Assembly: GCF_900459405.1 (NCBI RefSeq)
Contig: NZ_UHFN01000007.1
Coordinates: 2,108,001 to 2,172,000 of the forward strand
Direction of reading: 5' to 3'
Source of the DNA: Streptococcus hyointestinalis
Lineage (GTDB): Bacteria > Bacillota > Bacilli > Lactobacillales > Streptococcaceae
DNA: 64,000 nt
The position numbers and the translations under genes are program-made. Shown in pieces: positions 27,683-53,830 of this stretch; position 1 is the stretch's first letter; the number at the start of each line of letters is the position of its first letter. The notes beneath the pieces were generated by a model, which did not search any database, was not told the origin of the DNA, and was given only the letters and a program-made list of their open reading frames with translations.

Positions 27683-27755
27683 GCCTCCTTAGCTCAGTTG
27701 GTAGAGCAGTGGACTCTTAATCCATGGGTCACAGGTTCGAGCCCTGTAGGGGGCA
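27683..27755 (+). tRNA. tRNA-Lys (anticodon CTT)
   Basis: A full cloverleaf: acceptor GCCTCCT with AGGGGGC, D-arm AGCTCAGTTGGTAGAGC, anticodon loop CTCTTAA (anticodon CTT) and T-arm with GGTTCGAGCC. The discriminator is A and CCA is not encoded. It follows the 6S RNA by two bases, so it is probably processed from the same transcript. Its 3' end is the integration site of the element that follows. Confidence 0.95.
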
Positions 27756-27756
27756 T
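27744..27756 (+). repeat. Left attachment site (attL core)
   Basis: CTGTAGGGGGCAT, the end of tRNA-Lys plus one base, is repeated exactly at 50633-50645 in the same orientation. The sequences after both copies stay similar for about 40 bases, each with a CTTGTTTTAAAGGCTTTTTTT tail. Confidence 0.88.
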
Positions 27757-27767
27757 GAATAATTCTT

Positions 27768-27797
27768 CAAAAGCCTTGTTTTAAAGGCTTTTTTTCT
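27768..27797 (+). terminator. Terminator after tRNA-Lys
   Basis: AAAGCCTT, loop GTTTT, AAGGCTTT and a T-run follow the tRNA at attL. A similar structure follows attR. Confidence 0.75.
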
Positions 27798-27800
27798 TTT

Positions 27801-27824
27801 TTGGCACAAATTTGGCACAAAAAA
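27801..27824 (+). repeat. Integrase arm-type repeat, left copy
   Basis: Contains TTGGCACAAATTTGGCACAA, itself two copies of TTGGCACAA, and recurs at 50520-50543 inside the other end of the element in the same orientation. Tyrosine integrases use such paired arm sites near each end. Confidence 0.65.
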
Positions 27825-27831
27825 GTTCTTT

Positions 27832-28950
27832 TTATGATAGCTTATGACGAATTAACTCATATTCCCTATCCTTTTTCTCTTCTAATAAGTGACCGTATGT
27901 TTTAGTCACTTGCTCAATATCCTTGTGTCCCATAACATTTGAAACAACCCAAATATCAATCTCGTTCGCCAATAGATAACTAGCATAGCTATGACGTAAA
28001 CCAGTCAACGTTAATTGCCTTGGCTGTATATCCTCTTTTTCTAGTAAATAGCGCAACATCTTATTTACATTTGCTGATGTTGGAACACCGTAAGTAGAGC
28101 TATAATAAACAAAATTTTCAGGATTAGAGACTTCTGCTCCTTTTAATGTTCGCTCTTGCAAATGCTGGAGTTGCTTCAAAACAAAGCAAGTCTCATCATC
28201 TATCGGTATCTCCCTAACAGATGTTTCAGTTTTTGGCGGTGTAAAGCACTTTTTAGATGTATCATAACGTCTATATGTCTTAATCACCTTACGCTCAAAA
28301 TCAATACAATCCCAAGTTAAGCCTAGGTTTTCACCAGTTCGCAAACCCGTTTTCAATGCTACAAAAATGACATAATCCGATACTACATAACGCTCAGACA
28401 GTCTTGCTTTAACAGCTTGTTGTAACCTCAAATAATCAGATAAATTATTGATGAACTTATCAGATACTTTCTTAGTCACTTTACTACTTGCAATAACAAC
28501 ACCATCCGTGAAATCATCAATGGCTATCTTATCACGTCTTGCAAACTGTATAACTTTTCTAACTTCAGAATTGAACCTCTGAACATTATTTTTAGATTGG
28601 GTATCTCCTAATTTAGTTAGCACCCGTTGATACTGGCTAAATCGAATGGTACTAGCCACCTGATCACCAAAATACTGTTTCATATATTTACCACGCAGTC
28701 TATGCTTATATAAGGTAGACTCGCTTTTTTTCTGTGGAAGCACTATTGTCTCATACCATACCTTCCATAAGTCATACAATGATGAATCATTGGCTAGATC
28801 AACTCCTTTAAACAAAAGTTTATCTCTAGCATTTCCCTCAATTTGAGCTTCTCTTTTCGTTTTGAAACCACGTGCTTCAATAGTTTTCCCTGCTTTATCT
28901 CGAATGCTGTAATACCATTTTTTCCCTTTTTTCCTAAATGATACTGACAT
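27832..28950 (-). CDS. Tyrosine-type site-specific integrase
   Basis: A 372-residue integrase. The N-terminal arm-binding domain starts MSVSFRKKGKKWYYSIRDK; the core-binding SAM-like domain follows, then the catalytic domain with Arg in GLRTGENLGL, Arg in TGLRHSYASYLLAN, His in NVMGHKDIEQV and nucleophile Tyr in TKTYGHLLEE. Box II reads TGLR where most relatives have HxLR, so one usual His is Thr. I start at 28950; an upstream in-frame start adds 13 residues without a good ribosome binding site. The gene lies beside attL and points to it. Confidence 0.92.
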   Translation of the reverse strand: MSVSFRKKGKKWYYSIRDKAGKTIEARGFKTKREAQIEGNARDKLLFKGVDLANDSSLYDLWKVWYETIVLPQKKSESTLYKHRLRGKYMKQYFGDQVASTIRFSQYQRVLTKLGDTQSKNNVQRFNSEVRKVIQFARRDKIAIDDFTDGVVIASSKVTKKVSDKFINNLSDYLRLQQAVKARLSERYVVSDYVIFVALKTGLRTGENLGLTWDCIDFERKVIKTYRRYDTSKKCFTPPKTETSVREIPIDDETCFVLKQLQHLQERTLKGAEVSNPENFVYYSSTYGVPTSANVNKMLRYLLEKEDIQPRQLTLTGLRHSYASYLLANEIDIWVVSNVMGHKDIEQVTKTYGHLLEEKKDREYELIRHKLS

Positions 28951-29019
28951 AATGTGATTATCCTTTCCAAATAAAAAAGCGACAATCAAGGTTTGCTACT
29001 CTATTATAACATACCTCAA

Positions 29020-30892: not shown

Positions 30893-30920
30893 AAAAGCCC
30901 ATCCTTTTTTAGGATGAGCC
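30893..30920 (-). terminator. Terminator of the transfer-module operon
   Basis: A 10 bp stem (minus strand GGCTCATCCT with AGGATGGGCT) and a T-rich tail, six bases past the stop of the LPxTG gene. Confidence 0.8.
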
Positions 30921-30925
30921 GTTTC

Positions 30926-31816: not shown

Positions 31817-31830
31817 TGATTTATCCTTTC

Positions 31831-32376: not shown

Positions 32377-32377
32377 C

Positions 32378-33784: not shown

Positions 33785-33792
33785 GCTTCACC

Positions 33793-36189: not shown

Positions 36190-36200
36190 AAGCCCCTCCT

Positions 36201-38731: not shown

Positions 38732-39122
38732 GTGTTCTCCTTTCTCTTGGTTTGTGATAAATCTGTCCTTTATTGATATAGATAGACTCTTCTCGCATAC
38801 CATACTTGATATAAAAGAGAAGATAATCTTTTAGATAAAAGACAAAAGCCTTACCATCAACAACCAAATCAGATAGGCGCCTGCCTAGGTAAATCCCTGC
38901 GACCACGCACAACATTCCTCTTAATCCCCAAGGAAGAAAAAAGAGTAGAAAGTCCATCAGATACCATAAGCTAGCACCTACGACAAAACCATAAACAAAA
39001 AAGGATAACTTAAGCGCTGAGTTAAGCGAAAAGTTATCCGTAAGTCTTTGAATCCAATAAGGTTGCGATAAGGCTTGTTTGTAACAATAGAGTTCCTTAT
39101 CTGGTTTTTCCATAGGCTTCAC
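38721..39122 (-). CDS. TcpE/PrgI-like conjugation membrane protein
   Basis: A 133-residue protein with two hydrophobic segments (about residues 36-60 and 63-82) and a basic C-terminus (KPRERRTRVI). It matches the TcpE/PrgI group (Tn916 ORF17) that precedes virB4. Its GTG start overlaps the stop of the preceding gene (GTGA); an ATG three codons later is possible. It overlaps the VirB4 start by eleven bases. Confidence 0.75.
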   Translation of the reverse strand: MKPMEKPDKELYCYKQALSQPYWIQRLTDNFSLNSALKLSFFVYGFVVGASLWYLMDFLLFFLPWGLRGMLCVVAGIYLGRRLSDLVVDGKAFVFYLKDYLLFYIKYGMREESIYINKGQIYHKPRERRTRVI

Positions 39123-39337
39123 CCAAAGATTTTAGCGACAACACCTTTTAGGCTATCCATAACTTGTTGTGGATTAGAACCATAGTAGTAAGCAGCAACT
39201 CCAATAGCTAGTTTAGTTACCGCTTTACCAAAGGAGCCGTCTTTCACTGCTTCGATAATACCAAAGGCTGAGTAGGCAATTACCAGCCACATCCCGATAT
39301 TTTGAAAAAACCATTCCCATAATCCTGATAATGTCAT
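39119..39337 (-). CDS. Small membrane subunit of the transfer apparatus (TcpD/pilin-like)
   Basis: A 72-residue hydrophobic protein (MTLSGLWEWFFQNIGMWLVI) with two membrane segments and a short amphipathic tail (DSLKGVVAKIFG). Position directly before the TcpE-like gene and its size suggest a TcpD or VirB2-like component. It is the first transfer gene after the IS110 insertion. Upstream lie AAGGATAAATAAAG and a 45 bp tandem duplication. Confidence 0.6.
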   Translation of the reverse strand: MTLSGLWEWFFQNIGMWLVIAYSAFGIIEAVKDGSFGKAVTKLAIGVAAYYYGSNPQQVMDSLKGVVAKIFG

Positions 39338-39350
39338 CTTTATTTATCCT

Positions 39351-39440
39351 TATATTTATATTAGTGGGTAGCTCCCACTAGTATAAATCCTTTCTTATAT
39401 TTATATTAGTGGGTAGCTCCCACTAGTATAAATCCTTTCT
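39351..39440 (+). repeat. 45 bp perfect tandem duplication with internal hairpin
   Basis: Two exact units, 39351-39395 and 39396-39440, each containing the inverted repeat AGTGGGTAGCTCCCACT. They lie between the IS110 insertion and the first transfer gene, in the 5' leader of the latter. Confidence 0.92.
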
Positions 39441-39478
39441 TTAATATTTTTTAGATTTGTTTTATACTTTGTTCAGCG

Positions 39479-39610
39479 CTGTGGATTAGTAATTTTATCC
39501 AATCGCTTTGACGATTTCAAGGAGGCTCTAACCACAGCTCTTTGTTTAATTGGTAATTAGAATGATAACGCTTGACGTTTTATCTCGTGTAAGGCTACAA
39601 GACAAAGAGT
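39479..39610 (+). ncRNA. Bridge RNA of IS110 copy A
   Basis: Two stem-loops precede the transposase. Stem 1: CTGTGGaTTAG (39479) with CTAACCACAG (ending 39537), containing an inner AATCG/CGATT hairpin and an internal loop. Stem 2: CTCTTTGT (39538-39545) with ACAAAGAG (39602-39609), containing GATAACG/CGTTTTATC. The same folds occur before copy B at 55246-55380 with compensatory changes (CTCTTTGT/ACAAAGAG becomes CTTTTTGT/ACAAAAAG). Internal-loop sequences differ, as expected for target- and donor-binding loops. Confidence 0.75.
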
Positions 39611-39660
39611 GCGTGGAACGAACAACAGCTGCTAATCACTTTGAAAGGAATTAAAAACTT

Positions 39661-40818
39661 ATGTTCTATGTCGGTATTGATATTGCTAAAAATAAACACG
39701 ATATGGCTTGCATTGACAAAAATGGACGGGTTATCCTCCGAAAGTTTACGTTCCCTAACTCTCATCAAGGATTCATTGACCTAAAAACACAGCTTAGACA
39801 ACTGTCTCCTGTAATAGACAATGTTCATATTGCTCTTGAAAGCACCGGACATTACAACTATAATCTCGGCAGATTTCTGAGACAATTAGGTTATACGGTA
39901 TTTGCTTACAATCCCTTAATTATTAAGGAGTTCGCCAAATCACAATCCCTCAGAAAGACAAAAACTGATGTCAAAGACGCTCTTCTGATTGCACATCGCT
40001 TACGCTCTGATGTTGTCTCTGAACGCTACCATGTGGATGACAAAATCGAAGCATTAAAAGAACTCACTCGCTATCAAAATAGGTTAATTCAAGCTCGCTC
40101 TAGGAACAAAAATCTCTATGTTCGCTTGCTTGATCTTGTTTTTCCAGAGCTACACGGAATTGTTGGTAATTTACATAACAACTTCGTTTACGAACTACTA
40201 AGTAAGTACCCTAGTCCTGATAAGATTAGTCGTGCTCACTTCAAGTCTTTGCTCAAAATTAAACGACTTACAGCAGACAAAGCCCTTCTTATCAAGGAAG
40301 TAGCTAAGCAAACCATAGGAAAGGCTTCATCTGTACACTCCTTAGAGTTAATACAACTCATTGGTACGATTCGCCATTACGATAAGCAGATAGAAGATGT
40401 GCAGAAAGATATTGATAAACTTATGGTAGAGCTTGATTCACCTATTACCTCAATCACTGGTATTAGTAATCGCTTAGGAGCCATTATCCTTGCCGAGATT
40501 AAGACCATCCATAACTTTAAAACACCTGCCCAATTGCAAGCCTTCGCTGGTTTAGAACCTGCTATTTATCAATCTGGACAAATGGATAGTAAAGGTAAAA
40601 TGGTGAAGCGTGGCTCAACTTATCTCCGCTATGCTCTCATACAGGCTGCTAGGATATTAAGTATCTATTCGCCTCATTTTAAAGCCTATCTTCGTCTTAA
40701 AATAAGCCAAGGAAAACATTATAATGTCGCCCTATCGCATGTTGCTAAAAAGCTCATACGTGTTATTTTTCATCTCCTGAAAACCAATCAATCTTTCGAC
40801 GAAACTAAACTCAGATAA
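39661..40818 (+). CDS. IS110-family transposase (copy A)
   Basis: A 385-residue DEDD recombinase. RuvC-like domain: FYVGIDIAKNKHDMACI (Asp), IALESTGHYNYNL (Glu), TKTDVKDALLIA (Asp-Asp). Tnp domain: SITGISNRLGAIILAEIKTI and AIYQSGQMDSKGKMVKRGST with the serine thought to form the covalent DNA link. It is intact and clearly homologous to copy B at 54052-55197. A GAAAGGAATT site precedes the ATG. Confidence 0.94.
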   Translation: MFYVGIDIAKNKHDMACIDKNGRVILRKFTFPNSHQGFIDLKTQLRQLSPVIDNVHIALESTGHYNYNLGRFLRQLGYTVFAYNPLIIKEFAKSQSLRKTKTDVKDALLIAHRLRSDVVSERYHVDDKIEALKELTRYQNRLIQARSRNKNLYVRLLDLVFPELHGIVGNLHNNFVYELLSKYPSPDKISRAHFKSLLKIKRLTADKALLIKEVAKQTIGKASSVHSLELIQLIGTIRHYDKQIEDVQKDIDKLMVELDSPITSITGISNRLGAIILAEIKTIHNFKTPAQLQAFAGLEPAIYQSGQMDSKGKMVKRGSTYLRYALIQAARILSIYSPHFKAYLRLKISQGKHYNVALSHVAKKLIRVIFHLLKTNQSFDETKLR

Positions 40819-40954
40819 AACAGATAAAAACTCAAGATTTTTAAAACTTGCCCAAAAAGCAAGTCTTTTAACATGCTTTCTTTTTGGAGTTTATGTTGAG
40901 AAATAAACTCAAAAAACTAAACTTTACTCTTGATTTTTAATATAGAATGCCTCC

Positions 40955-41083
40955 TTAACAATTATCCTTTTGCATCTCTTCCAGCGCTTTATCAGCCATA
41001 GCAGAAACTCGACAAGCCATCCAACAGAATGCACCAAAGACTACCACTATAAAAAACAAAAGACCTAGTAATAACCAAATCAC
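40955..41083 (-). CDS. Small single-span membrane protein of the element
   Basis: A 42-residue ORF starting MIWLLLGLLFFIVVVFGAFC, a single membrane helix followed by a short charged tail ending EEMQKDNC. The GTG start overlaps the previous stop (GTGA), with GGGAGG nine bases upstream, so it is translationally coupled. A GGAGG follows its stop, but the next gene is missing because IS110 copy A is inserted there. Confidence 0.6.
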   Translation of the reverse strand: MIWLLLGLLFFIVVVFGAFCWMACRVSAMADKALEEMQKDNC

Positions 41084-41391
41084 TGTGCTACCTCCCATTT
41101 TTGGATATGCTTAGCTACTTTAATGCACTCTAGAAGGTAATCATACATGGGATGAACAATCTCACCAGCATAGATGATAAAATCACCCTCTGATACCATA
41201 TCTTCCAAAGTTGCATTAGCTATCATATTTAACTCAAATGAAAAAGCCACGTCCTTACGACGTGTACTCTTAACTAATATAACTTCCTTTGCTTCAGGAC
41301 TGTGATAAATCGTAACAAAAGTTCGTGGATTACTCTTTTTCAAAACCTTCAGCAATAATCTTTTATTGTAAAATGAAACCATATCAATCAT
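41080..41391 (-). CDS. Hypothetical protein of the transfer module
   Basis: A 103-residue soluble protein (MIDMVSFYNKRLLLKVLKKS) that I do not recognise. It contains a basic patch VKSTRRKDVAF and ends in a helical segment LLECIKVAKHIQKWE. It overlaps the thioredoxin-like gene by eight bases and the 42-residue gene by four, forming a tight operon. The function is unknown. Confidence 0.5.
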   Translation of the reverse strand: MIDMVSFYNKRLLLKVLKKSNPRTFVTIYHSPEAKEVILVKSTRRKDVAFSFELNMIANATLEDMVSEGDFIIYAGEIVHPMYDYLLECIKVAKHIQKWEVAQ

Positions 41392-41824
41392 TAAATTTCT
41401 CTAAAACCTCCTTGTTTGCTTGATAGCTACCATCTTTTTCAGTGACATACAAATACTTCTCAACCATGTCTCCACGGACAAAAACAACGCTTGGCGCTTC
41501 CTTAATACTGTATTTTTCAACCAACTTTTGTCCCTCTTCGCTCTCAACATCAACGTAAAAAGTCGTCAACAAACTCTTTTCACCTGCTTTTATGACATCT
41601 TGTTTGCCAAAGCGGCACATAGGACAAGAACGCTTGTAAAAGACAAGATTATAATACTTTTTTGAAACATCTAGCGCCTGTTTAGCTGCCAAATGAATGT
41701 CATAATCATGTGACTTTTGATAAGTGTCAACAAGAGTATTTGTTGTAACGGCTAAACAAAAAATAGTTCCTGCACCAGCAAGAACTATTCCTGTTTTCTT
41801 TAGAAATGCTTTACTTTCTATCAT
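41384..41824 (-). CDS. Membrane-anchored thioredoxin-like protein
   Basis: A 146-residue protein with an N-terminal membrane anchor (about 11-28) and a thioredoxin-like domain: the redox motif CPMC in FYKRSCPMCRFGKQDV near residue 65 and the cis-proline in KEAPSVVFV. It is predicted to act outside the membrane in thiol exchange. Similar thioredoxin-like genes are found in streptococcal conjugative elements. It starts the small operon that leads to the 42-residue protein. Confidence 0.75.
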   Translation of the reverse strand: MIESKAFLKKTGIVLAGAGTIFCLAVTTNTLVDTYQKSHDYDIHLAAKQALDVSKKYYNLVFYKRSCPMCRFGKQDVIKAGEKSLLTTFYVDVESEEGQKLVEKYSIKEAPSVVFVRGDMVEKYLYVTEKDGSYQANKEVLEKFND

Positions 41825-41982
41825 AATAACCTCCTTTTCTAAGATAGTTGACTTGAAAGAGCAGAAAATAACAAAAAATAATAAAGGAAAAATGTTTTAC
41901 TAAAAATCAAAAATTAGAAAGAAATATGTATAATTTTATTCAGGAGAAATATATTCTACTATTATCTGCTCATGCAAATCTA

Positions 41983-42049
41983 CTATCTCTTTTAGAGAGA
42001 GTACAAGCCTGTCTTATCGTTTTCTTTGTACTCTCACTAAAAGGGATAG
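41983..42049 (-). repeat. Long imperfect inverted repeat (24 bp arms)
   Basis: Arms 41983-42006 and 42026-42049 are complementary at 23 of 24 positions counting one G-U pair, around a 19-base loop. It lies directly after the stop of the 42057-42380 gene. There is no T-run, so it is not an ordinary terminator; it could be an RNA stabiliser or an origin-of-transfer element. Confidence 0.75.
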
Positions 42050-42056
42050 ATAATCC

Positions 42057-42380
42057 CTAAAAAATAATAACCCCTTTTTTAAACCAACGTTCTCTAAACT
42101 TATCTTTAGAGTCGCCTGTGATACCGCAGACATGTCTACTAAAATCATAATTGTAACCCGTTTTATAGAAATCTTGTAATTCTTCCTGATAAGCTTCTAC
42201 AAACTCTCTTAGAGCTGGTAGAGCTTTATCATCACAGCTAAAAGGATAAACTGGACGATACCATTCTTTATTTTCCTTGTAAACAGCGATACCATAAAAA
42301 TAGACAGGAACAGCTAAGCTTTCACTGTCATACCTCACTTTTTTGATAACTTTACATGTTACATCTCCTTTCTGCTTCAT
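42057..42380 (-). CDS. Hypothetical protein of the integrative element
   Basis: A 107-residue soluble protein (MKQKGDVTCKVIKKVRYDSE) I do not recognise. It has several aromatic residues (YKENKEWYRPVYPF) and a C-terminal KFRERWFKKG. It lies downstream of the XRE regulator gene by 24 bases and is probably co-transcribed with it. Confidence 0.5.
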   Translation of the reverse strand: MKQKGDVTCKVIKKVRYDSESLAVPVYFYGIAVYKENKEWYRPVYPFSCDDKALPALREFVEAYQEELQDFYKTGYNYDFSRHVCGITGDSKDKFRERWFKKGVIIF

Positions 42381-42404
42381 CTTCTTACTTGCCTTTCTAA
42401 ATTG

Positions 42405-42827
42405 TTATTTTTCCTCTAGTTGCTCTTTGAGCTTATTACACAGAGCAACAACATCCTTTTTATAAACAAACTTCACTTTCTTATCAAGACTCGCTTTTGG
42501 AATAGCTTCTGCTTGATAACTGTCATAAACTTCTTTGATTAAGCCATGAGCCAAGCGCTCATTGAACCCCATATCACATAAATCACGATAAGAAACAACT
42601 AGCTGACGATCAACCAGTGTACTTTCTTCTTCACTAGCCACAAGCTCATCCAAGCTACAGTTAAAATAAGTCTTGAGCTTGACCAGAACTTCCAAGGAAG
42701 GTGTTCTAGCACCTGCTTCAAACTTGTTATAATAACTTGGCGTTATTCCTAAATAAGTCGCTATATCTTCTTTTTTAGCTCCTCTGTCCTTACGAAGCTG
42801 TCTCAAATGACTTGCAAAAGCACTCAT
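42405..42827 (-). CDS. XRE-family transcriptional regulator
   Basis: A 140-residue protein. A Cro/C1 helix-turn-helix occupies residues about 5-60 (LRQLRKDRGAKKEDIATYLG and YYNKFEAGARTPSLEVLVKL). The C-terminal 70 residues form a helical domain with FNERLAHGLIKEVYDSY. It lies upstream of a hypothetical gene and is a likely local repressor of element functions. Its operator is not visible to me. Confidence 0.8.
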   Translation of the reverse strand: MSAFASHLRQLRKDRGAKKEDIATYLGITPSYYNKFEAGARTPSLEVLVKLKTYFNCSLDELVASEEESTLVDRQLVVSYRDLCDMGFNERLAHGLIKEVYDSYQAEAIPKASLDKKVKFVYKKDVVALCNKLKEQLEEK

Positions 42828-42849
42828 ATCTTTCTCCTTTTTCCAAAAT

Positions 42850-42875
42850 AAAAAGGCATGACTTTCATCATGACA
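42850..42875 (-). terminator. Terminator of the HEPN/MNT pair
   Basis: On the minus strand GTCATGA, loop TGAAAG, TCATGCC then TTTTT, 30 bases after the HEPN stop. It resembles the two terminators near 29.4 and 30.3 kb. Confidence 0.6.
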
Positions 42876-42904
42876 AAAAGTTGTTCTATGGTTCTTGAAT
42901 TGAG

Positions 42905-43288
42905 CTAATAATCATCCAACTCCTTTTCAACATCCCTAATGATAATCTGTAGATTTTCAATTAAAACTGGAATATCTTTTATAGCAATTTGAACAATTTC
43001 ATAGGAATCGGTTCCGCCATAATGGTGATAAGCCTTATCTCTAAATCTTTTAATTTGAGACCAAGGTAATAAATCAGCATACTTTCTCTGAATATCACTT
43101 GATAACTTTCTAGAATCTAATTGCTCACCAATTTGCCCAATGTGCATGGCTAATGAAGCAACAACCATCTCATCGTAAATATCAATACCATAATGCTTGA
43201 CTTTACCAAGAGTATTTTCAATTTCTTCCGCAAAGCTCAACATCTGCCTAAGATACGAATAATCTAGTTCCAGCTGCTCTTTTCTCAT
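42905..43288 (-). CDS. HEPN domain toxin (HepT-like)
   Basis: A 127-residue all-alpha protein starting MRKEQLELDYSYLRQMLSFA. The HEPN RNase motif Rx4-6H is visible in RFRDKAYHHYGG. HepT-type toxins are RNases blocked by their MntA partner, which AMPylates them near this motif. The start at 43288 overlaps the MNT gene by 41 bases; an in-frame upstream codon at 43336 is possible. Confidence 0.8.
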   Translation of the reverse strand: MRKEQLELDYSYLRQMLSFAEEIENTLGKVKHYGIDIYDEMVVASLAMHIGQIGEQLDSRKLSSDIQRKYADLLPWSQIKRFRDKAYHHYGGTDSYEIVQIAIKDIPVLIENLQIIIRDVEKELDDY

Positions 43289-43595
43289 ATAGTAATACCT
43301 TATCCTTCTTAAAACTCTTATAAACTTCTTTGCCAATGTAGGTAGTATTTGTTGACAGTCCTTCCAAAGTCATTAAGTCAACACCTACATCAAAAACGGC
43401 TTCTAACTCATCATAAAGTTTATAAAACGCAAAACCTAAAGCATTAGAGTCTTTAGAAACGATGACTAAATCAATATCACTATCGTCATCAGCTTCACCT
43501 CTTGCATAGGAACCAAAAAGATAGATAGCAGGCAGGTTATACTTATCTGCCAGTGGAATAATCTTTTCTTGTATCTGTTCTATCGTATAAACCAT
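43248..43595 (-). CDS. MNT-type nucleotidyltransferase antitoxin (MntA-like)
   Basis: A 115-residue minimal nucleotidyltransferase. The signature GSYARGEADDDSDIDLVI (GSx10DxD) holds the metal-binding aspartates. With the overlapping HEPN gene it forms a HEPN/MNT toxin-antitoxin pair, in which the enzyme adds AMP to the toxin. The ATG at 43595 is nine bases from GAGAGG; an ATG two codons earlier is too close to that site. Confidence 0.82.
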   Translation of the reverse strand: MVYTIEQIQEKIIPLADKYNLPAIYLFGSYARGEADDDSDIDLVIVSKDSNALGFAFYKLYDELEAVFDVGVDLMTLEGLSTNTTYIGKEVYKSFKKDKVLLYEKRAAGTRLFVS

Positions 43596-43601
43596 AACCA
43601 C

Positions 43602-44170
43602 ATACCTCTCTTTCTATAGTTATTATAACATATACTGACTCTATATGCTTTAAGAAGCCTGCTACAATGAGTAGACTTCTTAAAACAAAAAAGCTAGTAA
43701 GACACAACAAAAACAAGGACGAAACCTCAGCTATCTTACTGCTATCAAACTAACTTTTAAACCAAAAAGATGCAGTCAGCTAACTACATCAATCAATGAA
43801 AAACTTAAGTAATTTTTTAAGTAGCAAAAAACTACTGCCATTTTTTGCATGCTCCTATCTTCGCATGCTTTCACAAGTCAAAAAAACTTGCTACTACCTC
43901 GGACAAGTCACAAGCTCATACTTAATTCAATAAGCACTCCCTCTCACCTTGACCTTTAGCCGAAAAAGGCACTTTTCGACACACCGCCCACACCTAGCCA
44001 GATTCGCCATCTCTCCATAGCCTCACTGGTGGTGTCTCCAGCCCTTGCAGGCTAGCAGTTCTAGTTTTTCGCTCAACACAGGATAACTAGCATAAACCTT
44101 AACGCATTCTGTTATGAGTTCCTCACAACAGTCAGCTAACTTCTTCTAGGATGTAAACCACTTGTTGTCG
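43602..44170. other. Non-coding stretch of the element, no gene seen
   Basis: About 570 bases without a credible ORF. It contains a GC-richer part (about 43930-44120) with the blocks ACACCGCCC and GGTGGTGTC in partial inverse relation, and several short hairpins near 43790-43880. A transfer origin or the remains of a lost gene are possible, but I see no recognisable nic site. Confidence 0.4.
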
Positions 44171-44270
44171 TTTACTTTTCCCTGTCTTTGTGCTACAATA
44201 AAAGTGTTCGAAGTTTTTATTATAGCGTTGGATAGGCTGCCTAAAAGCAGGTTGTCTGACGCATTTTTTA
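44171..44270 (+). ncRNA. Candidate short RNA with its own promoter and terminator
   Basis: TTTACT (44171-44176), a 17-base spacer and TACAAT (44194-44199) form a promoter. From 44225 to 44262 a long hairpin (outer GCGTTGGATAG, inner CTGC with GCAG, returning TTGTCTGACGC) is followed by ATTTTTT. Transcription would start near 44206 and end near 44270, giving an RNA of about 65 nt, upstream of the regulator gene at 44629. Confidence 0.55.
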
Positions 44271-44504
44271 TGATATTTATTAAATATATTTGTCAAAGAA
44301 CGGCTACCTAAGTTCTTATCACCAACGTTTCTACAATCTTTTTATCAAAAACTCTTTTAACGTTTTAAGATAGAACTGATAATAGATTATCAATAGGTAT
44401 GGAGAAAAGATTGAGATTCAATCTCTTCTCTATAACTACTGAAAGGGCTAAACCGTATTAAATTATGATGAAGATACCAACTAAACTGTTTTCCTTCTAC
44501 CTAT
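44271..44504. other. Non-coding stretch before the ImmR-like gene
   Basis: AT-rich sequence without a gene. It includes an inverted repeat at about 44402-44433 (GAGAAAAGATTGA with TCAATCTCTTCTC), which may be a weak terminator or an operator. Confidence 0.35.
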
Positions 44505-44531
44505 TTTACATCTCGCAATCTTTGATATAAT
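44505..44531 (+). promoter_or_regulatory. Candidate promoter of the ImmR/ImmA-like operon
   Basis: TTTACA (44505-44510) and TATAAT (44526-44531) with a short 15-base spacer. An alternative is TTTACA (44535-44540) with TATTTT (44558-44563). Either start lies at or next to the operator repeats. Confidence 0.5.
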
Positions 44532-44536
44532 TATTT

Positions 44537-44579
44537 TACAACTTTATTTTGTAACAATATTTTACAACTTTATTTTGTA
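44537..44579 (+). promoter_or_regulatory. Twin operator repeats, probably bound by the ImmR-like repressor
   Basis: TACAACTTTATTTTGTA occurs exactly at 44537-44553 and 44563-44579, 26 bases apart. Each copy is a palindrome, TACAA with TTGTA around a 7-base centre, typical of XRE repressor sites. Their place between promoter and regulator gene suggests autoregulation. Confidence 0.75.
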
Positions 44580-44628
44580 TCTGTCAACCATTTTTTGAAA
44601 ATTTTTTATTCTAGAAAGGAGTGTTTCT

Positions 44629-44976
44629 ATGTTTTCAGAACGTCTAAAAGCGTTGAGAAATGAATTAGGTTTCACTCAAACCCAAATTGCTAATCAACTG
44701 AACGTAAAACAACAAACATATGCAAAATGGGAAAGTGGCAAGGGGAAACCTAGAGCTACCACACTTGAAAAATTAGCTAGTTTACTTAAAGTATCAACTG
44801 ATTATCTACTCGGAAATACTGACATAAAAAATCCAGAAGAGACAATATCTGATGTTGATATGCTCTTTAGACGAACCTCTAAAGACCTAACACCAGGACA
44901 ACAAGAAGTCTTTAAAAAGGAACTAATGGACTTCATGGAGATGAGACGTAAAGCATTTGAGGAAGATAATAAGTGA
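44629..44976 (+). CDS. XRE-family repressor (ImmR-like)
   Basis: A 115-residue repressor. The helix-turn-helix is in residues about 5-60 (LRNELGFTQTQIANQLNVKQ, followed by TYAKWESGKGKP). The C-terminal part (about 75-115) is helical and charged. Its overlap with an ImmA-like protease gene by four bases matches the ICEBs1 pair in which ImmR represses transfer genes and ImmA cleaves it after DNA damage. An AGAAAGGAGTG site precedes the ATG. Confidence 0.85.
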   Translation: MFSERLKALRNELGFTQTQIANQLNVKQQTYAKWESGKGKPRATTLEKLASLLKVSTDYLLGNTDIKNPEETISDVDMLFRRTSKDLTPGQQEVFKKELMDFMEMRRKAFEEDNK

Positions 44977-45842
44977 GAGATACCTACCTAAAGATCAATG
45001 ATATTGCCAATCAAGAAATTTATCGCTTTATTAAACTCTTTAACATTTCTAGATTAGACTACACCTTTGAACCATTTTTCAATCATATAGTTAAAAGTAA
45101 AAATATCAAAGTTATGGAGCATCATTTTTCCGATGACATTCTTTTAGGTATAACAATGACTGATTTTTTAGGAACCTCTATATCTTACGAAACAGATTGT
45201 CCTATCCCTCGTCAGAACTTTACAAAGTGTCACGAAATAGGTCATCTCATACTGAAACACGAAGGTAAGTTTTTCGCAAATAGTAAACGTGAAGATAACC
45301 CAACAGAAGTTGAAGCTGATTACTTTGCTTCTTTTGTACTTGCACCTGATATCATTTTGCTCTCAAAAATTGTTTATCAGAACAAACATTTTTATGAACT
45401 CGCTACTGAACTAAAAATGTCTAACCAAGCTCTCGAAGTACGTTTACACTACTTTCTAACATATTACTGTCAATATACACAGCAAATCGCTAATAATCTT
45501 CTAGACAGCTATAAAAGGCATAATACTAAAGATATAGTCGCTGCTATTAAAAGAATTGAAAACCGTATCATTAAAGGTTATAACGCAGTCGCTGTATCAG
45601 ATAAACAAAAGCTTGAAGCCTTGATGACAACAAAGGATTTCATCACTAATTATGATATTGACTCTTTAGCAGACAAAGAGTTTCAAAAAGAAATCAAAGA
45701 AGAGTTTCACCATACTGCCACTTTTGCTTATTACGATAAAGGACTAACAATTTGGTATCTCTGGAATACAGAAAAATTAAGCCAAGAAGAAGCTAAACGA
45801 AAAGCAAAGTTATTGCACTACAATATACAAAACATGCTATAA
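44973..45842 (+). CDS. ImmA/IrrE-type metallopeptidase
   Basis: A 289-residue protein with a zinc protease motif HEIGH in FTKCHEIGHLILKHEGKF and downstream glutamates in PTEVEADYFASFVLA. This is the ImmA/IrrE/COG2856 core. It starts with GTG overlapping the repressor stop (GTGA). By analogy with ICEBs1 it would cleave the repressor and release excision. The C-terminal 130 residues are a less conserved, charged helical extension. Confidence 0.88.
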   Translation: MRDTYLKINDIANQEIYRFIKLFNISRLDYTFEPFFNHIVKSKNIKVMEHHFSDDILLGITMTDFLGTSISYETDCPIPRQNFTKCHEIGHLILKHEGKFFANSKREDNPTEVEADYFASFVLAPDIILLSKIVYQNKHFYELATELKMSNQALEVRLHYFLTYYCQYTQQIANNLLDSYKRHNTKDIVAAIKRIENRIIKGYNAVAVSDKQKLEALMTTKDFITNYDIDSLADKEFQKEIKEEFHHTATFAYYDKGLTIWYLWNTEKLSQEEAKRKAKLLHYNIQNML

Positions 45843-45970
45843 ATTTTAGTACATATTTAGTATACCCCCAACGTCAATTAATAGCAAGCTAGCTGGCAGA
45901 TGTAGACAATTTTTTTCAAAAAAATTTTTAAAAGCTAGATGATCTCTAATTTTTTCCTAAATATTAAAAA

Positions 45971-46012
45971 AGCTAAATGGATATACATGGTTCTGCATCT
46001 ATCCATTTAGCT
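45971..46012. terminator. Bidirectional terminator after the ImmA-like gene
   Basis: A 13 bp perfect stem (AGCTAAATGGATA with TATCCATTTAGCT) with A-run and T-run on opposite sides. It ends both the plus-strand ImmR/A operon and the minus-strand J-domain gene. Confidence 0.88.
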
Positions 46013-46051
46013 TTTTAACATTCATAAGTTAGAGAATGTAGCTGCCACATC

Positions 46052-46501
46052 TCACATACTTTTTAACTCATCAAAAGCCCAATTAATTTTTTTCATAATC
46101 TTATCTGCCCCTCTTTCCTCAGAAACATCAGGGTGATATTGTTTTGATAACACTTTATATTGTTTCTTTATCTCTGAAAATGAAGCTGTCTCACTAACTC
46201 CTAAAATCTCATAGGGATTATCACTATACCAACGACTATAACTTTTCTTGGCAGTAGGTTCTTCATAATATTCAGTCGTATCTTCAAAAACTTGCTCTTT
46301 CTCAACAGAATAATCAATAGTTAAAGCAAGATATATTACAGCTATTACTATAGCAAACAGACCAATTAAAATAATATTTTTAATAAACAACCATAATAAA
46401 AATACTATAGCAATATATTTAAACAGTCCTCGAAGCGAAACTAAAAATCGAATAATAAGTAAAGCAAAAGTAACCACTATAAAAAACGTAAAAAATGACA
46501 T
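46052..46501 (-). CDS. Membrane-anchored J-domain protein
   Basis: A 149-residue protein with two hydrophobic stretches in the first 65 residues and a C-terminal J domain (about 95-149): NPYEILGVSETASFSEIKKQ followed by the HPD motif in QYHPDVSEE. J domains recruit DnaK. With no zinc or substrate domain it is likely a membrane-targeted DnaK helper. It stands alone between a promoter and terminator on the element, next to the lanthipeptide-type cluster. Confidence 0.8.
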   Translation of the reverse strand: MSFFTFFIVVTFALLIIRFLVSLRGLFKYIAIVFLLWLFIKNIILIGLFAIVIAVIYLALTIDYSVEKEQVFEDTTEYYEEPTAKKSYSRWYSDNPYEILGVSETASFSEIKKQYKVLSKQYHPDVSEERGADKIMKKINWAFDELKSM

Positions 46502-46690: not shown

Positions 46691-47971
46691 TCATCTTCCA
46701 TTTGCTCTTTTATTGTTAGTTAATACTTCTTTTAACAAACGATTAACTAAATAAACCAAACAAATTAGAACTATGAGAAGTAGCAAAAAAAATGCTATAG
46801 TTGAACCAAACACAGAATTTATCGCAACAATCAGACTTGCCGCCATAGGGACTGTTAGCGTAATGAGTGTGCTGTAAATACTAAAAATAGAATTTTGTCT
46901 TTCCTCTGGAACAGTCTGTAAAATTAAGCTTGTAATCTTGGGATTAGACACACCACCTAAATAACCTATAAAAAGACTTGACAAGAGCACCAAACCTATA
47001 TTTGAAAGATAACCTAAGCTCACAATCAGTAAAACTGTAAATAATAGCTCTGCCAATATATTATACTCTAACTTCAAATCCCTATACCATTTTAACGGAA
47101 AGAGTGAACCTATAATACTAGAAGAAACCTCTACAACTTCTATAATAGTTAAAGTTAAAGCTAGATTTCCTATCAATAAGGATGAATTTCCCACCAATGT
47201 CATCGTCATCAAAGAATATAAACCAGATGACACAAAATTCATCGCTAAAAACAAAGAAACAAATTTAAAAATTGCTTTAATATTTACTAAAGATTTTAAA
47301 TTGTGAATGGTGTCCTTGAAGAATTGGGTTATTTGAGCCTGAACATTAGCACCTGCTGACTTCATCTTGCTCTCTTTATAGGGAAAAGACGACCTTAAAG
47401 ATAGGGCAAATACAAAAGATAAGGCAAAAAATGCAGCATTAGCTAAACCAAATTGAAAGTAATTATAAGCCAGCAAACTCAACAAAAGCGTTCCTAAAGC
47501 CCGCCCCGCTAAAGAAAGAGAATCGTAAAATCCGTTCTGAATACCTAAAGCATAGGACAAATCATCTGCCTTAATTGCCTTTTGATTTAAAGATAAGGTC
47601 AAATAACCATTATAGGTGGAGATGATATCACTGATAATATTGATAATAATAATCAAAGTAAAGAGCACCATATTTTTATCGAACAAAGTAAGAACTGCAA
47701 AAATAAGGTACAAAAGAACCTGACATAATTTTGTTCTCAATAAATAGCGATATTTATTATCCGTTTTATCCGAAAGATAACCAACAATAAAAGAAAAAAC
47801 ATAAGGTAGCGAAGCTACAATACTAGCTATTCCCACTGCTAACTCAGGATTTGGAAACGTTGCAGCATAGATGATAAAAACAAGATCAAAAAGCGTCTTC
47901 CCTAACACAGAAAAACTATTAGACAACAAAAGCTGTCTAAAGGTCGGATTTTTCACAAAAAACTTTATCAC
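46691..47971 (-). CDS. MFS transporter of the lanthipeptide-type cluster
   Basis: A 426-residue protein with about 12 membrane helices and the MFS loop GYLSDKTDNKYR between helices 2 and 3. It begins one base after the LanKC stop, so it is in the same operon and probably exports the modified peptide or gives immunity. It is homologous to the MFS gene at 55455-56684: both begin with a FRQLLLSNSFSVLG / YRHLLLSRILDNLG block followed by VFxxYAAT. Class III clusters usually use ABC exporters, so an MFS is unusual. Confidence 0.85.
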   Translation of the reverse strand: MIKFFVKNPTFRQLLLSNSFSVLGKTLFDLVFIIYAATFPNPELAVGIASIVASLPYVFSFIVGYLSDKTDNKYRYLLRTKLCQVLLYLIFAVLTLFDKNMVLFTLIIIINIISDIISTYNGYLTLSLNQKAIKADDLSYALGIQNGFYDSLSLAGRALGTLLLSLLAYNYFQFGLANAAFFALSFVFALSLRSSFPYKESKMKSAGANVQAQITQFFKDTIHNLKSLVNIKAIFKFVSLFLAMNFVSSGLYSLMTMTLVGNSSLLIGNLALTLTIIEVVEVSSSIIGSLFPLKWYRDLKLEYNILAELLFTVLLIVSLGYLSNIGLVLLSSLFIGYLGGVSNPKITSLILQTVPEERQNSIFSIYSTLITLTVPMAASLIVAINSVFGSTIAFFLLLLIVLICLVYLVNRLLKEVLTNNKRANGR

Positions 47972-47972
47972 A

Positions 47973-50186
47973 TCAAACTCCTATAATATTCAAAACAAAA
48001 AGGTTTCCTAGAGCACCATCACTAAATCTAAGAGAAGAGGTCGTCTTATCATTAGAAAGAGGAACATATAAACCATTTTCATAAACATCAAATTGTACCA
48101 TATTATATATTAATTCTATAGCATCTTGGTACATCATTTTATCATCAAAAACTTTGCTTACTTCAGAAAGTACCATTCCAATTCCTAAACCTCCAAAAAA
48201 TAAACCACTATTTTTGCACCATTTGATCTTTCGTAATGTTTCACAATACGGCTTAATAATCTCATTCTCTAATCTATACCTGTAGTTATGATCATTTATC
48301 AATTTATATAACTCTAAGGCTATAAATACTAAACCAGATAATCCATCACATAAATAAGGACTAGATATATTTTCTGAGTAATCCATTATAAAACAATATT
48401 CTCCATCATCGTACTTAATATTTTTGTTAACCTCTTCTAACAAACTAGAACATTTTTTCAAATAAAAATCATCATTAGTATTCACATATCTTATTAAATA
48501 AAACAGACAATGTCCTAACTTCCCTTCAAAAAGACTGTCTTCTTTAACATCAGACTCTGACATCCGTTTCTCTACAAGGTTAACCAATTCATCACTCATT
48601 AATGAACCATCAGTAAAAATACAAAGTAAACCTAAGCCTAACACACCAGATTTTATAGATAAATCTGGATATCCACATATCCAATGTTTGATATCTTCAT
48701 TTGACATTCTAATAACTGATTTAAAATAGGTCTGTATTTCATCTACTAAAAGTTTAGAAAAAGTATAGACTAATCTATTACCCAGTGTAACATCTGGTAA
48801 GGTTTGCTTTTCATAATTCTTTTTTCTATATTCAAGTTCTTTAAAATATCTAGGTTTTACAAAAGATGTATTCCTACTAAATCCTCTATCAATTAATTTA
48901 GATAATTTAGTTTTCCAATCCAAAGGCTGTCGTATCAACAATATAATTATTTCATAAAAATACCCTAGTTCATTATACTCTGCAAATATTTTAAATTGTG
49001 CTAATAAAGTATTGCCTGTTGGATCGTAATTGTTTACAGAATTAATTGGTAACAAATAATTTAGTAAAACATATCCCAATTTATGAAAATCACTATTAAA
49101 AGGAACCAAATCTTTTACACTCTCATCATAGAATGTAGGAGTAGCTCCCTTAATATTATCTTTTAACCCATCTTTTACAAAATAGGAGGAACCAAAATCA
49201 ACAATAACAGGCTCAAGATCACTTTTTATAATAAAATTAGCAGGACTAATATCATTTATAACAACTCCTACCTGATGGATCTTATCTAATAACTCTATGA
49301 GGTTCGCAAAGATTTTCTTGGTATCCTCTATTTTTTGATTTATAGCACGGAAAAAATCTAAACTTTGACCTTGTATTTCTTCAAACACTCCAAAAAAATT
49401 ACCTTCTTCATAGAAAGTCAAAAGCAACCTAGGAACAACTATCCCGTGATTATTAAGAAAAGAAATAATATTGATTTCATTTTGTAATTCACCTATTGAG
49501 TCACCATAAACTCCTAAAATATACCTCCTTGCCTCTTTTAAAATAACTACCTCATCTTCATAAATAGAATGGTAAACATTACCGGATGAGGAGGTATGAA
49601 TAATATCTAATGGAAAAACTGTTACACCCAATGTACTATAAGCAATATCTGCTTCACTAAAATTATCAAAAGGATCATTTTCAAACTTCGGAACACAGAA
49701 ATAATCTCTCTCATCTTTCACAAAATACCCTTCATTGTCAATCAAATAAGGTATACCATCATTCTCAAATAAACCAAAACGATAATAAATAACTGAATCT
49801 TTGAATTGCTTATCAGAGATAATATAAACACCCTGATATCCATCTAATTTAGGATATAAATCCTCTATAATATTTCTGAATTGTTTATCCGACTTGGGAT
49901 AGATTGTAATAAATTTTCCTGCCTGTCCATAGGGAGCATCTCCTGATAATAAATAATATAATGAATTTAGTTTATCAATATATTTAAAACTAATTTTATT
50001 CATTAAAAGATAATCCCCAACAATATTAATAATCATCAAATGATTTTCAATTGTACATGAAATATGGATTTTCCATCCCTGTCTTCTTTCCCTATCAAAT
50101 ATAATATACCTAAAAAATTCATCTCTCACATCTTCACATTTTGGTGACTCTGCAGAAAGAAGATAATCATTCTCATAATAAAACAT
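47973..50186 (-). CDS. Class III lanthionine synthetase (LanKC-like)
   Basis: A 737-residue three-domain enzyme. Residues 1-190 are the LanKC N-terminal lyase-type domain (GWKIHISCTIENHL; AGKFITIYPKSDKQF; YIISDKQFKDSVIYYRFG). Residues about 195-400 are a kinase domain: Lys217 in VVILKEARR, catalytic Asp312 in VINDISPANF, DFG at 330-332. The C-terminal part is a LanC-like toroid with five GxxG repeats (GVLGLG, GKLGHC, DGLSGL, GGLGIG, DGALGN) and no obvious Cys-Cys-His zinc site, as in class III. It would phosphorylate and eliminate Ser/Thr and form thioether or labionin rings. It is shorter than the usual 800-900 residues. Confidence 0.85.
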   Translation of the reverse strand: MFYYENDYLLSAESPKCEDVRDEFFRYIIFDRERRQGWKIHISCTIENHLMIINIVGDYLLMNKISFKYIDKLNSLYYLLSGDAPYGQAGKFITIYPKSDKQFRNIIEDLYPKLDGYQGVYIISDKQFKDSVIYYRFGLFENDGIPYLIDNEGYFVKDERDYFCVPKFENDPFDNFSEADIAYSTLGVTVFPLDIIHTSSSGNVYHSIYEDEVVILKEARRYILGVYGDSIGELQNEINIISFLNNHGIVVPRLLLTFYEEGNFFGVFEEIQGQSLDFFRAINQKIEDTKKIFANLIELLDKIHQVGVVINDISPANFIIKSDLEPVIVDFGSSYFVKDGLKDNIKGATPTFYDESVKDLVPFNSDFHKLGYVLLNYLLPINSVNNYDPTGNTLLAQFKIFAEYNELGYFYEIIILLIRQPLDWKTKLSKLIDRGFSRNTSFVKPRYFKELEYRKKNYEKQTLPDVTLGNRLVYTFSKLLVDEIQTYFKSVIRMSNEDIKHWICGYPDLSIKSGVLGLGLLCIFTDGSLMSDELVNLVEKRMSESDVKEDSLFEGKLGHCLFYLIRYVNTNDDFYLKKCSSLLEEVNKNIKYDDGEYCFIMDYSENISSPYLCDGLSGLVFIALELYKLINDHNYRYRLENEIIKPYCETLRKIKWCKNSGLFFGGLGIGMVLSEVSKVFDDKMMYQDAIELIYNMVQFDVYENGLYVPLSNDKTTSSLRFSDGALGNLFVLNIIGV

Positions 50187-50204
50187 CTACTCTCCTCCTA
50201 ACAT

Positions 50205-50234
50205 AAAAGTGAGTCTACAAAATAGACCCACTTT
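50205..50234 (-). terminator. Hairpin between precursor and synthetase genes
   Basis: On the minus strand AAAGTGGGTCTA, loop TTTTG, TAGACTCACTTTT (one mismatch). This would act as a partial terminator giving more precursor than enzyme transcript, as is common in lanthipeptide operons. Confidence 0.7.
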
Positions 50235-50249
50235 CATTCATGTTTTTAA

Positions 50250-50345
50250 TTAAATTAAACCTTTCATAGGTGCAGGACACTTAGTAGATCGAGCCAGTGA
50301 TAAGTATTGATCTTTCTTTTTAGGTAGTCGTAGTAAAATGTTCAT
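50250..50345 (-). CDS. Putative lanthipeptide precursor
   Basis: A 31-residue peptide with a basic N-terminal part (MNILLRLPKKKDQYL) and a C-terminal part SLARSTKCPAPMKGLI. Ser16, Ser20 and Thr21 lie ahead of a single Cys23, so one lanthionine, methyllanthionine or labionin-type ring can form. The ILLRLP segment may stand for the hydrophobic leader motif (ILxLQ) of class III precursors. GGAGG lies eight bases before the ATG. It is directly upstream of the LanKC gene, behind a consensus promoter. The peptide is not one I recognise; ring pattern and cleavage site are unknown. Confidence 0.72.
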   Translation of the reverse strand: MNILLRLPKKKDQYLSLARSTKCPAPMKGLI

Positions 50346-50391
50346 GATGAAATCCTCCATATTTAATATAATTATATTCGAATACAACTAT

Positions 50392-50420
50392 AGTATATCA
50401 CCTTTAAACAAATTTGTCAA
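50392..50420 (-). promoter_or_regulatory. Strong promoter of the lanthipeptide-type operon
   Basis: On the minus strand TTGACA (50415-50420), exactly 17 bases, then TATACT (50392-50397) preceded by TGA, giving an extended -10. It is one of the best sigma-A promoters in the window. Confidence 0.88.
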
Positions 50421-50519: not shown

Positions 50520-50543
50520 TTGGCACAAATTTGGCACAAAAAA
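50520..50543 (+). repeat. Integrase arm-type repeat, right copy
   Basis: Same 24 bases as 27801-27824, in the same orientation, about 90 bases inside the right end of the element. Confidence 0.65.
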
Positions 50544-50632: not shown

Positions 50633-50645
50633 CTGTAGGGGGCAT
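50633..50645 (+). repeat. Right attachment site (attR core)
   Basis: Exact copy of CTGTAGGGGGCAT from the tRNA-Lys 3' end, followed by a T-rich terminator-like tail similar to that after attL. Confidence 0.88.
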
Positions 50646-50773
50646 ATAAAATGCTTTGAAAGTCTTGTTTTAAAGGCTTTTTTTCTTTTTTTTGAGCTAA
50701 CGACATGAATGGTAAAAAACTAGCCTCCTTATGAACAGCTCCCTGTCAAGTAGACAGTGAAATAATAAAATGA

Positions 50774-52978: not shown

Positions 52979-53830
52979 ATGGATTTAGGAGCTACTTTCA
53001 AACAACTACGGACATCACGTCATATCACCCTCAAGGAAGCCTGCAAAGACGCATTTTCACCCTCCATGTTATCTAGGTTCGAATCTGGGCAAAATGACCT
53101 TTCAGCAGATAAGTTTCTCACTGCACTGGAGCATATCCACACAGATGTCAATGAATTTTTGTACTTAGCTCATGGCTTTACACCATCTGCTTTTGCTGCA
53201 TTGTTAGAAGCCATTTTCAATCTTGAAACACAGATGGATGTCGCTGGCTTAAGAGCCCTTTATGAGAGGGAAGCTGCTTTGTCTTCTCGTGAACACGCTG
53301 TCAACGCTCTCGTCATCAAGGCACATCTCAAAGCACTAGATGATAGCGTCACTATGACCGAGAAAGAAAGTCGTTTTTTGCATGACTATCTGTTTGAGAC
53401 AGAGATTTGGGGAAGATACGAGCTAGAGCTATTTGCCATCAGCACGCCCCTGCTTAGTGTTGAGCTCTTTAGCAGATATACACGGGAAATCTTGCGTAAA
53501 ACAGATACTCTTGGCGAACTTCCAGAAAATCGTGCCATCATCCACACTATGCTCCTTAATGGCTTTCTACTCTCTATTGACGAGGAGGATTTTGACAATG
53601 CCACTTACTTTGACCAGCAGATAAAGAAGCGCTTTTATCATGAAAAAGAAGCCTACTTTCGAATTGTCTACCTTTTTGCCCAAGGCTTGTTGACTTATAA
53701 AAAAGGGGATAAAGTGAATGGTACAAGGCAAATGCAAAAAGCTATTTCGATACTTGAAACTCTTGATTGCCAAAAAGCTGCGAGCTACTATCAAAGGTCA
53801 CTAGGCCTCTTACTACAAGCAGATAACTGA
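52979..53830 (+). CDS. Rgg/GadR/MutR-family transcriptional regulator
   Basis: A 283-residue regulator with an N-terminal helix-turn-helix (about 5-60: FKQLRTSRHITLKEACKDAF, SPSMLSRFESGQNDLSADKF) and a C-terminal TPR-like helical domain (about 75-283) ending in YQRSLGLLLQADN, the Rgg peptide-sensing fold. Rgg proteins respond to short pheromones and often control an adjacent gene. The next gene in the same direction is an MFS gene at 55455, now separated by an IS110 element. A TAAGGAGTC site precedes the ATG. Confidence 0.88.
   Translation: MDLGATFKQLRTSRHITLKEACKDAFSPSMLSRFESGQNDLSADKFLTALEHIHTDVNEFLYLAHGFTPSAFAALLEAIFNLETQMDVAGLRALYEREAALSSREHAVNALVIKAHLKALDDSVTMTEKESRFLHDYLFETEIWGRYELELFAISTPLLSVELFSRYTREILRKTDTLGELPENRAIIHTMLLNGFLLSIDEEDFDNATYFDQQIKKRFYHEKEAYFRIVYLFAQGLLTYKKGDKVNGTRQMQKAISILETLDCQKAASYYQRSLGLLLQADN

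Follow-up and report, generated by a model that had tools for sequence, protein, structure and literature searches.

What would be made by three consecutive reverse-strand genes, coding for a 31-residue peptide, a LanKC-type synthetase and a transporter of the major facilitator superfamily (MFS), that form the last cargo before the right end of an integrative element in Streptococcus hyointestinalis? The window analyzed was a stretch of 64,000 nucleotides (contig NZ_UHFN01000007.1, positions 2,108,001 to 2,172,000), and its features are given in Table 1. The locus was judged to be quite probably a class III-type lanthipeptide cluster carried on the element as cargo. This assignment was reached from the gene order, the domains and active-site residues of the synthetase, a conserved peptide core, the bias to silent substitutions between peptide genes and the ends of the element, all of which were computed. 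A preliminary description of the DNA had named a consensus promoter, a 31-residue peptide with Ser16, Ser20, Thr21 and Cys23, a hairpin, a LanKC-like protein (lyase-type N-terminus; kinase with K217, D312 and DFG at 330; five GxxG repeats and no zinc triad), an MFS gene starting one base later and an integrative element, and each of these was recovered.

Table 1. Positions in the window of the cluster, its control sequences and the ends of the carrier element
Feature	Position	Strand	Remarks
Precursor peptide, 31 aa, MNILLRLPKKKDQYLSLARSTKCPAPMKGLI	50250..50345	-	ATG at 50345, stop ends 50250
LanKC-type synthetase, 737 aa	47973..50186	-	Lyase, DFG kinase, shortened LanC domain
MFS transporter, 426 aa, predicted exporter	46691..47971	-	PF07690, TIGR00900; GTG start
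Near-consensus extended -10 promoter	50392..50420	-	TTGACA-17-TATACT with TG; 11/12 matches
Imperfect palindrome TGTATTCGAATATA	50373..50386	.	Just 3' of -10; possible operator
Hairpin, peptide-synthetase intergenic	50203..50237	-	z -5.3; 0/200 shuffles as stable
tRNA-Lys (ctt), attachment gene	27683..27755	+	
Left attachment-type repeat	27744..27802	+	59-nt direct repeat; tRNA 3' end and terminator-like stretch
Right attachment-type repeat	50633..50691	+	88% to left repeat
24-nt repeat inside left end	27801..27824	+	Identical to 50520-50543; putative arm site
24-nt repeat inside right end	50520..50543	+	Identical to 27801..27824
Tyrosine integrase of carrier	27832..28989	-	PF00589, 74.6 bits

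The assignment of the synthetase to the LanKC type was supported by its architecture, which comprised a RamC-type lyase, a Ser/Thr kinase and a LanC-like domain without a zinc triad, as in class III enzymes. Pfam scores were 122 bits for PF25816 (RamC_N), 38.5 bits for Pkinase and 40.5 bits for LANC_like (PF05147), and the homology search did not show the N-terminal domain to be unrelated to LanKC. Lyase residues mapped on ThurKC, the class III synthetase of Bacillus thuringiensis, were present as K39, H41, K68, K91, D125, R136 and R160. In the kinase, K217, D312 and D330 were invariant across a 43-row alignment, E237 was invariant as well, and DFG stood at 330-332. Five GxxG motifs were found beyond residue 400, and the zinc-ligand positions were Cys, Phe and Phe (one of three) in an alignment that is uncertain at this identity. 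Neither these positions nor the NF038150 score (200.7 bits, cut-off 650) pointed to a class IV LanL enzyme. The predicted model of the synthetase was aligned to ThurKC as far as residue 736-737.

The peptide gene had a ribosome site (GGAGG, 50358-50354) eight bases 5' of its ATG. An upstream ATG, which would yield 36 residues, was TTG in Streptococcus sciuri SQ9-PEA, where the start of the 31-residue form was conserved. Related precursors were found at three other loci, in S. sciuri (L010), in another streptococcus (G277) and in G1014 (L181). The last genome is probably a Staphylococcus, since its synthetase was 86% identical to that of Staphylococcus pseudintermedius (P0005); a search with P0005 gave one close relative in 84 genomes, and G1014 stands in for it here. 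Precursor lengths were 31 residues in the window, 28 in S. sciuri, 29 in G277 and 33 or 34 in G1014. The leaders were unlike, and the core ARS[TI]KCP was common to all four peptides, which shared M1, L4, K9, A18-R19-S20 and K22-C23-P24 in the alignment. Compared with the ILxLQ/LELQL-type motif, the hydrophobic leader stretches were ILLRL in the window, ILLKL in S. sciuri, ALLKV in G277 and the canonical-looking ILELAKLP in G1014. The G1014 precursor was MKAILELAKLPKEELVSNVRMARSTKCPVKTQR, and the same peptide was present in metagenomes as a 40-residue open reading frame (ORF; P0121).

The peptides of the window and S. sciuri were 64% identical. Over 24 codons, nonsynonymous (dN) and synonymous (dS) divergence of their genes was 0.18 and 0.79, that is, mostly silent change; for the MFS genes, dS was 0.98 and dN 0.13. 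This silent-biased change, together with the presence of the core next to LanKC in three further genomes, places the peptide beyond chance. A search with the core pattern returned six matches in 5 of 284 streptococcal genomes and five matches in 5 of the 84 genomes of the G1014 genus; six of the eleven had no Ser at the third codon, one encoded ARSIKCP out of frame and four were the precursors. The out-of-frame ARSIKCP, a second one in the genome of the window (G000:C7:822489), sits inside another gene, which we take from its sequence to be HMG-CoA-reductase-like, and was rejected as a chance match.

The surroundings of other streptococcal LanKC-type genes were also read. RamC_N exceeded the family cut-off at 49 places in 43 of the 284 streptococcal species genomes, and the window plus 35 of the remaining 48 were read, 36 loci in all. 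Genes were labelled by BLAST with the window and G277 proteins, which may miss distant ones; on this basis an MFS gene followed LanKC at 27 loci (one a 156-residue piece, one 749 nucleotides off), an ABC gene at four, and a recognisable Rgg gene preceded LanKC at 20. Short upstream ORFs with a ribosome site were found at 29 of the 36 loci (38 ORFs in total, one frame being counted twice with two starts and L112 being the same as L114), and none was found inside 600 nucleotides at the remaining seven. The spacing [ST]xxC occurred in 26 of the 33 Cys-holding ORFs, compared with 8.0 in shuffles (maximum 17, 2000 shuffles), and no other spacing tested occurred in more than 10.

A single lanthionine between Ser20 and Cys23, and not a labionin, is predicted because these two residues were the only invariant ring-formers across the four peptides. 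Further dehydration may be optional, since Thr21 is replaced by Ile in G277 and Ser16, shared by the window and S. sciuri, has no Ser or Thr at its place in G277 and G1014. A labionin, or two rings with Ser16 used besides Ser20, was considered very improbable: Ser16, Ser20 and Cys23 are all available in the window and S. sciuri peptides, but Ser16 is missing from the other two, the spacing is S-x3-S-x2-C and not the Sx2Sx3C given in the available text on a pneumococcal family (PMC7268733), and the clade of the window synthetase is without DFE, the motif shared by characterised labionin makers (PMC10604976).

This clade was defined among 151 aligned synthetases of at least 600 residues. It had nine members: the synthetases of the window and of G277, and seven others, which came from metagenomes or from staphylococci. 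The third DFG place was Gly in all nine (eight DFG, one DLG) and Glu in 135 of the 142 others. In a tree built quickly from 53 N-terminal regions (support by SH-like approximate likelihood ratio test, SH-aLRT, only, with no bootstrap; fragment P0002 included, P0007 left out), a nine-row group holding the window had an SH-aLRT of 99 and stood apart from a 16-row streptococcal group (637-658 residues) and an eight-row group containing seven proteins of 828-842 residues. In ThurKC, Glu384 of DFE sits near Lys108 and Arg275 (PMC10604976). The corresponding residues of the window synthetase were Gly332, Gly82 and Glu233, and because of these replacements the DFG/Lys108-equivalent region has probably been rebuilt. 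Lys108 was absent from 9/9 members of the clade, from 16/16 and 7/7 members of the two other streptococcal groups, and from 9 of the remaining 119 (one a gap). Its loss was rejected as a distinguishing trait of the clade, being also seen in 23 Glu-keeping members of the other streptococcal groups.

For the chemistry, leader removal, export and function, the following pathway is proposed. The strong promoter would drive transcription of the peptide gene, and the hairpin would let only part of the transcripts pass into the synthetase gene, which would leave the precursor in excess. The LL[RK]L stretch of the leader would dock on the kinase N-lobe, the kinase would phosphorylate Ser20 and perhaps also Thr21 and Ser16, and the RamC-type lyase would eliminate the phosphate to give dehydroalanine. 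Cys23 would then add to position 20, giving a lanthionine ring of four residues, A-R-[S-T-K-C]-P. This sequence of leader docking, phosphorylation, elimination and Cys addition follows the class III pathway worked out for ThurKC (PMC10604976).

The LanC domain, with no zinc triad and its first part seemingly gone, would act mainly as a scaffold with weak cyclase help, and since it is reduced, closure of so small a ring may need little catalysis. If the domain were too reduced altogether, the enzyme would dehydrate only, and the product would be a peptide with dehydroalanine or dehydrobutyrine (Dha/Dhb), or one whose ring closes unassisted. ThurKC Arg519 falls in a gap of the window LanC domain, where five GxxG remain, ThurKC Asp771 is Phe, and LANC_like was not found by Pfam in the two scanned members of the related 16-member group of 637-658 residues. 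We nevertheless hold this outcome to be unlikely, for the Phe at the position of ThurKC Phe770 is kept, and the invariance of Cys23 in the four peptides and the frequency of [ST]xxC in the short ORFs point to a thioether, whichever way it closes.

In the single-ring pathway, the leader would be trimmed by an unlinked host peptidase, which is probable because the stretch from the peptide gene to the MFS gene holds no gene for a protease. The MFS protein would export the product, which would act extracellularly, either as an antagonist of narrow spectrum or as a signal. That it is a secreted antagonist or signal is an evenly balanced guess, made because G277 has an Rgg gene and because streptococcal ribosomally synthesized and post-translationally modified peptides controlled by short hydrophobic peptides and Rgg (SHP/Rgg) are reported as narrow-spectrum in the available text of PMC12445099.

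Several observations weigh against a functional class III-type cluster. No product is known for it. ThurKC Lys108, the loss of which abolished dehydration in that enzyme (PMC10604976), is Gly in the window synthetase. The best LANC_like stretch covers residues 601-647 only (47 residues), and NF038151, the NCBI equivalog for LanKC, gave 242.8 bits, below its cut-off of 575 (235 bits for the G277 relative). The short ORFs are all related and therefore are not independent tests, so that the shuffle test overstates their independence. The S. sciuri synthetase (L010:6947-7651) keeps about residues 1-150 and 610-680 only, having lost about 460 central codons and the C-terminus, with the peptide and MFS frames open. 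Such a deletion, and the splitting of the VirB4-like gene of the carrier over two frames, would be expected if the cluster were decaying and no modified peptide were made. Decay was thought very unlikely for the window, where none of the three genes is interrupted, every mapped lyase and kinase residue except Lys108 is present and the peptide gene has changed mostly silently.

The MFS gene, which begins one base past the synthetase stop, has counterparts adjoining all four ARS[TI]KCP loci. These proteins were 32-79% identical among themselves and 22-30% identical to the MFS proteins of four other streptococcal LanKC loci; from this pattern and the gene order we infer export. The S. sciuri locus, on a 521-kb contig and read for ORFs at 4500-12000 of L010, had the same gene order as the window, with an MFS protein 78-79% and a lyase part 81% identical, and differed by the large internal deletion in its synthetase. 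In G277 the order was Rgg, the 29-residue peptide ending ARSIKCP, LanKC and MFS, and the synthetase was 34% identical to that of the window. The G1014 locus shared the core ARSTKCP, a hairpin, a DFG LanKC and an overlapping MFS gene, but its LanKC was 32% identical. A phage origin was rejected, as 50,697 phage records gave no LanKC match at E 1e-5. Viral contigs gave one distant match (L032, 31%), and plasmids gave 78 matching records, each below 60% identity.

The promoter of the peptide gene was the best of 27 candidate sites in 4.3 kb. The total of 27 was not above that of shuffles (25.7), and only this site stood out; the aligned place in S. sciuri had TTGACA and TATAAT. The palindrome, the S. 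sciuri counterpart of which was TGTATTCGGATACA, was rejected as a significant operator, its pattern being no rarer in the window than expected by chance. The hairpin is probably an attenuator or partial terminator. Its counterparts were strong in G1014 (z -7.4), of z -3.1 in S. sciuri and weak in G277 (z -0.8; 39 of 200 shuffles equally stable). Control of the window cluster by Rgg was not counted, because the nearest Rgg gene that was found, at 52979-53830, is not part of the element but sits past an insertion sequence (IS) and points away. Its protein, encoded beside a DUF7679 gene, was 41-56% identical to several LanKC-linked Rgg proteins. The IS3-type, DUF7679 and Rgg genes past 50691 are all outside the element.

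Among known systems, PneKC and SalKC are presumably streptococcal, as we take from their names. The pairs PneKC/PneA and SalKC/SalA (PDB 8w7a, 8w7j, 8w7l, 8wgo and 9ugq, by their PDB titles) were represented by synthetases 18-20% identical to that of the window, with 865-871 residues compared with 737. ThurKC (with ThurA; PDB 8sam, 8sao, 8sap) was 22-24% identical in structural alignments; the window enzyme differs by DFG in place of DFE, Gly82 for Lys108, Glu233 for Arg275 and a shorter LanC domain. ThurA is dehydrated 11 times and carries a labionin in its final form (PMC10604976); the window peptide has one likely ring. A class III cluster in Streptococcus is also described in the available text of Walker 2020 (PMC7268733) for the Streptococcus pneumoniae precursor family III 3, with an Sx2Sx3C core and with a prolyl oligopeptidase and a CAAX protease in the cluster. 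The window has SxKC with an MFS gene, and no protease gene between the two.

The preliminary description had called the cluster a minimal streptococcal version, with a short leader, one ring and an MFS exporter, of a class mostly studied in actinobacteria. The remark on actinobacteria did not stand, as structures of ThurKC, PneKC and SalKC exist and the pneumococcal precursor family was, on the available text, noted in 2020 (PMC7268733); class III enzymes are an established kind, and probably so in streptococci too. The LanKC type was supported, but a purely streptococcal range was not, since G1014, a probable staphylococcus, has the same core, gene order and MFS gene. The short leader, single ring and MFS exporter agreed with the computation, but a short ORF and an MFS gene are the local rule at streptococcal loci, so it is the conserved core and the subtype of the enzyme that are novel. 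A link of Rgg to a lanthionine gene is likewise already in print, going by the available text of a 2026 review, which places a lanthionine biosynthesis protein in the Rgg939 operon of pneumococci (PMC13361665). What is new is a conserved-core, Gly-type, MFS-linked LanKC subfamily, on which nothing was found in the titles and abstracts listed from the open PMC literature.

A wider proposal is made tentatively and with more doubt than belief: ARS[TI]KCP may be a fixed lanthionine peptide of streptococci and staphylococci, an exported effector with one conserved target, and its makers a new LanKC subtype. A product with a fixed target would be expected to show just this, a core that stays the same as the leader, the synthetase and the flanking DNA drift apart. 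If the proposal is true, synthetases 32-34% identical and with unlike leaders keep yielding the same seven-residue ring peptide, and the subtype combines a canonical Gly in the DFG place with a partly dismantled cyclase. Small serine-protease inhibitors present a P2-P1 loop, which a constrained Thr-Lys or Ile-Lys in the ring would resemble, so that the product may act on a protease or on a receptor. With its three genes and one predicted ring, the system is compact enough for quick tests of MFS export, of the DFG kinase and of whether a full cyclase is needed. At 28-31 residues, these precursors fall on or below the lower limit of 30 residues that one large survey, in its available text, appears to use (PMC7268733). 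Given these small precursors and scores far below the NCBI LanKC cut-off, surveys using either filter may miss such clusters.

The carrier is an integrative element of about 22.9 kb in tRNA-Lys, with a tyrosine integrase beside the tRNA gene and direct repeats at both ends. It holds TcpE-like and VirB4-like genes and a CHAP/lysozyme protein, and the VirB4-like AAA_10 gene (36201-38803) is split over two overlapping frames. With Pfam, no relaxase family was found in the 20 scanned of 21 ORFs of at least 100 residues (27832-46501). Because of this and the split VirB4-like gene, the element is probably not self-transmissible. By eye, not by profile, an integrase-like frame was seen 3' of the same tRNA-Lys in 6 of the 12 relatives listed (L144, L152, L155, L156, L157 and L160), a count on which the tRNA-Lys was taken as an integration hotspot.

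Other cargo was noted on the element. Overlapping genes for a HepT-like protein and a nucleotidyltransferase (42905-43601) form a HepT/MntA-type toxin-antitoxin pair, and a repressor of the RstR/helix-turn-helix kind is followed by an IrrE-type metalloprotease (44629-45842; ImmR/ImmA-like). A perfect 45-nucleotide tandem duplication (39349-39438) lies just 5' of an IS110-family transposase gene. Directly 3' of the cluster, a gene (46052-46501) codes for a small protein that carries predicted membrane stretches and, at its C-terminus, a J-domain.

Among the other streptococcal loci, the group of 637-658 residues (L106, L108, L109, L113, L115, L117-L119, L121, L122, L126-L130 and L133, with L104 and L120 as truncated members) was mostly accompanied by Rgg and MFS genes, and its peptides of 27-32 residues start with MTxF and have [ST]xxC near the end. 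As LANC_like was not found in the two members scanned, searches requiring it would miss such proteins. The group of 828-842 residues (L110, L112, L114, L123, L124, L125 and L131) had the NisC-type Asp, His, Cys, Cys and His in 7/7, and in the two scanned the class IV model outscored the class III model, both scores being under their cut-offs. These are probably class IV LanL-like enzymes with precursors of 31-34 residues and MFS genes. At L107 and L116, secreted-looking peptides ending GLDVGKAD were found 5' of LanKC. We take this ending to resemble that of the pneumococcal PhrA pheromone, and it suggests TprA/PhrA-type control of these two LanKC clusters.

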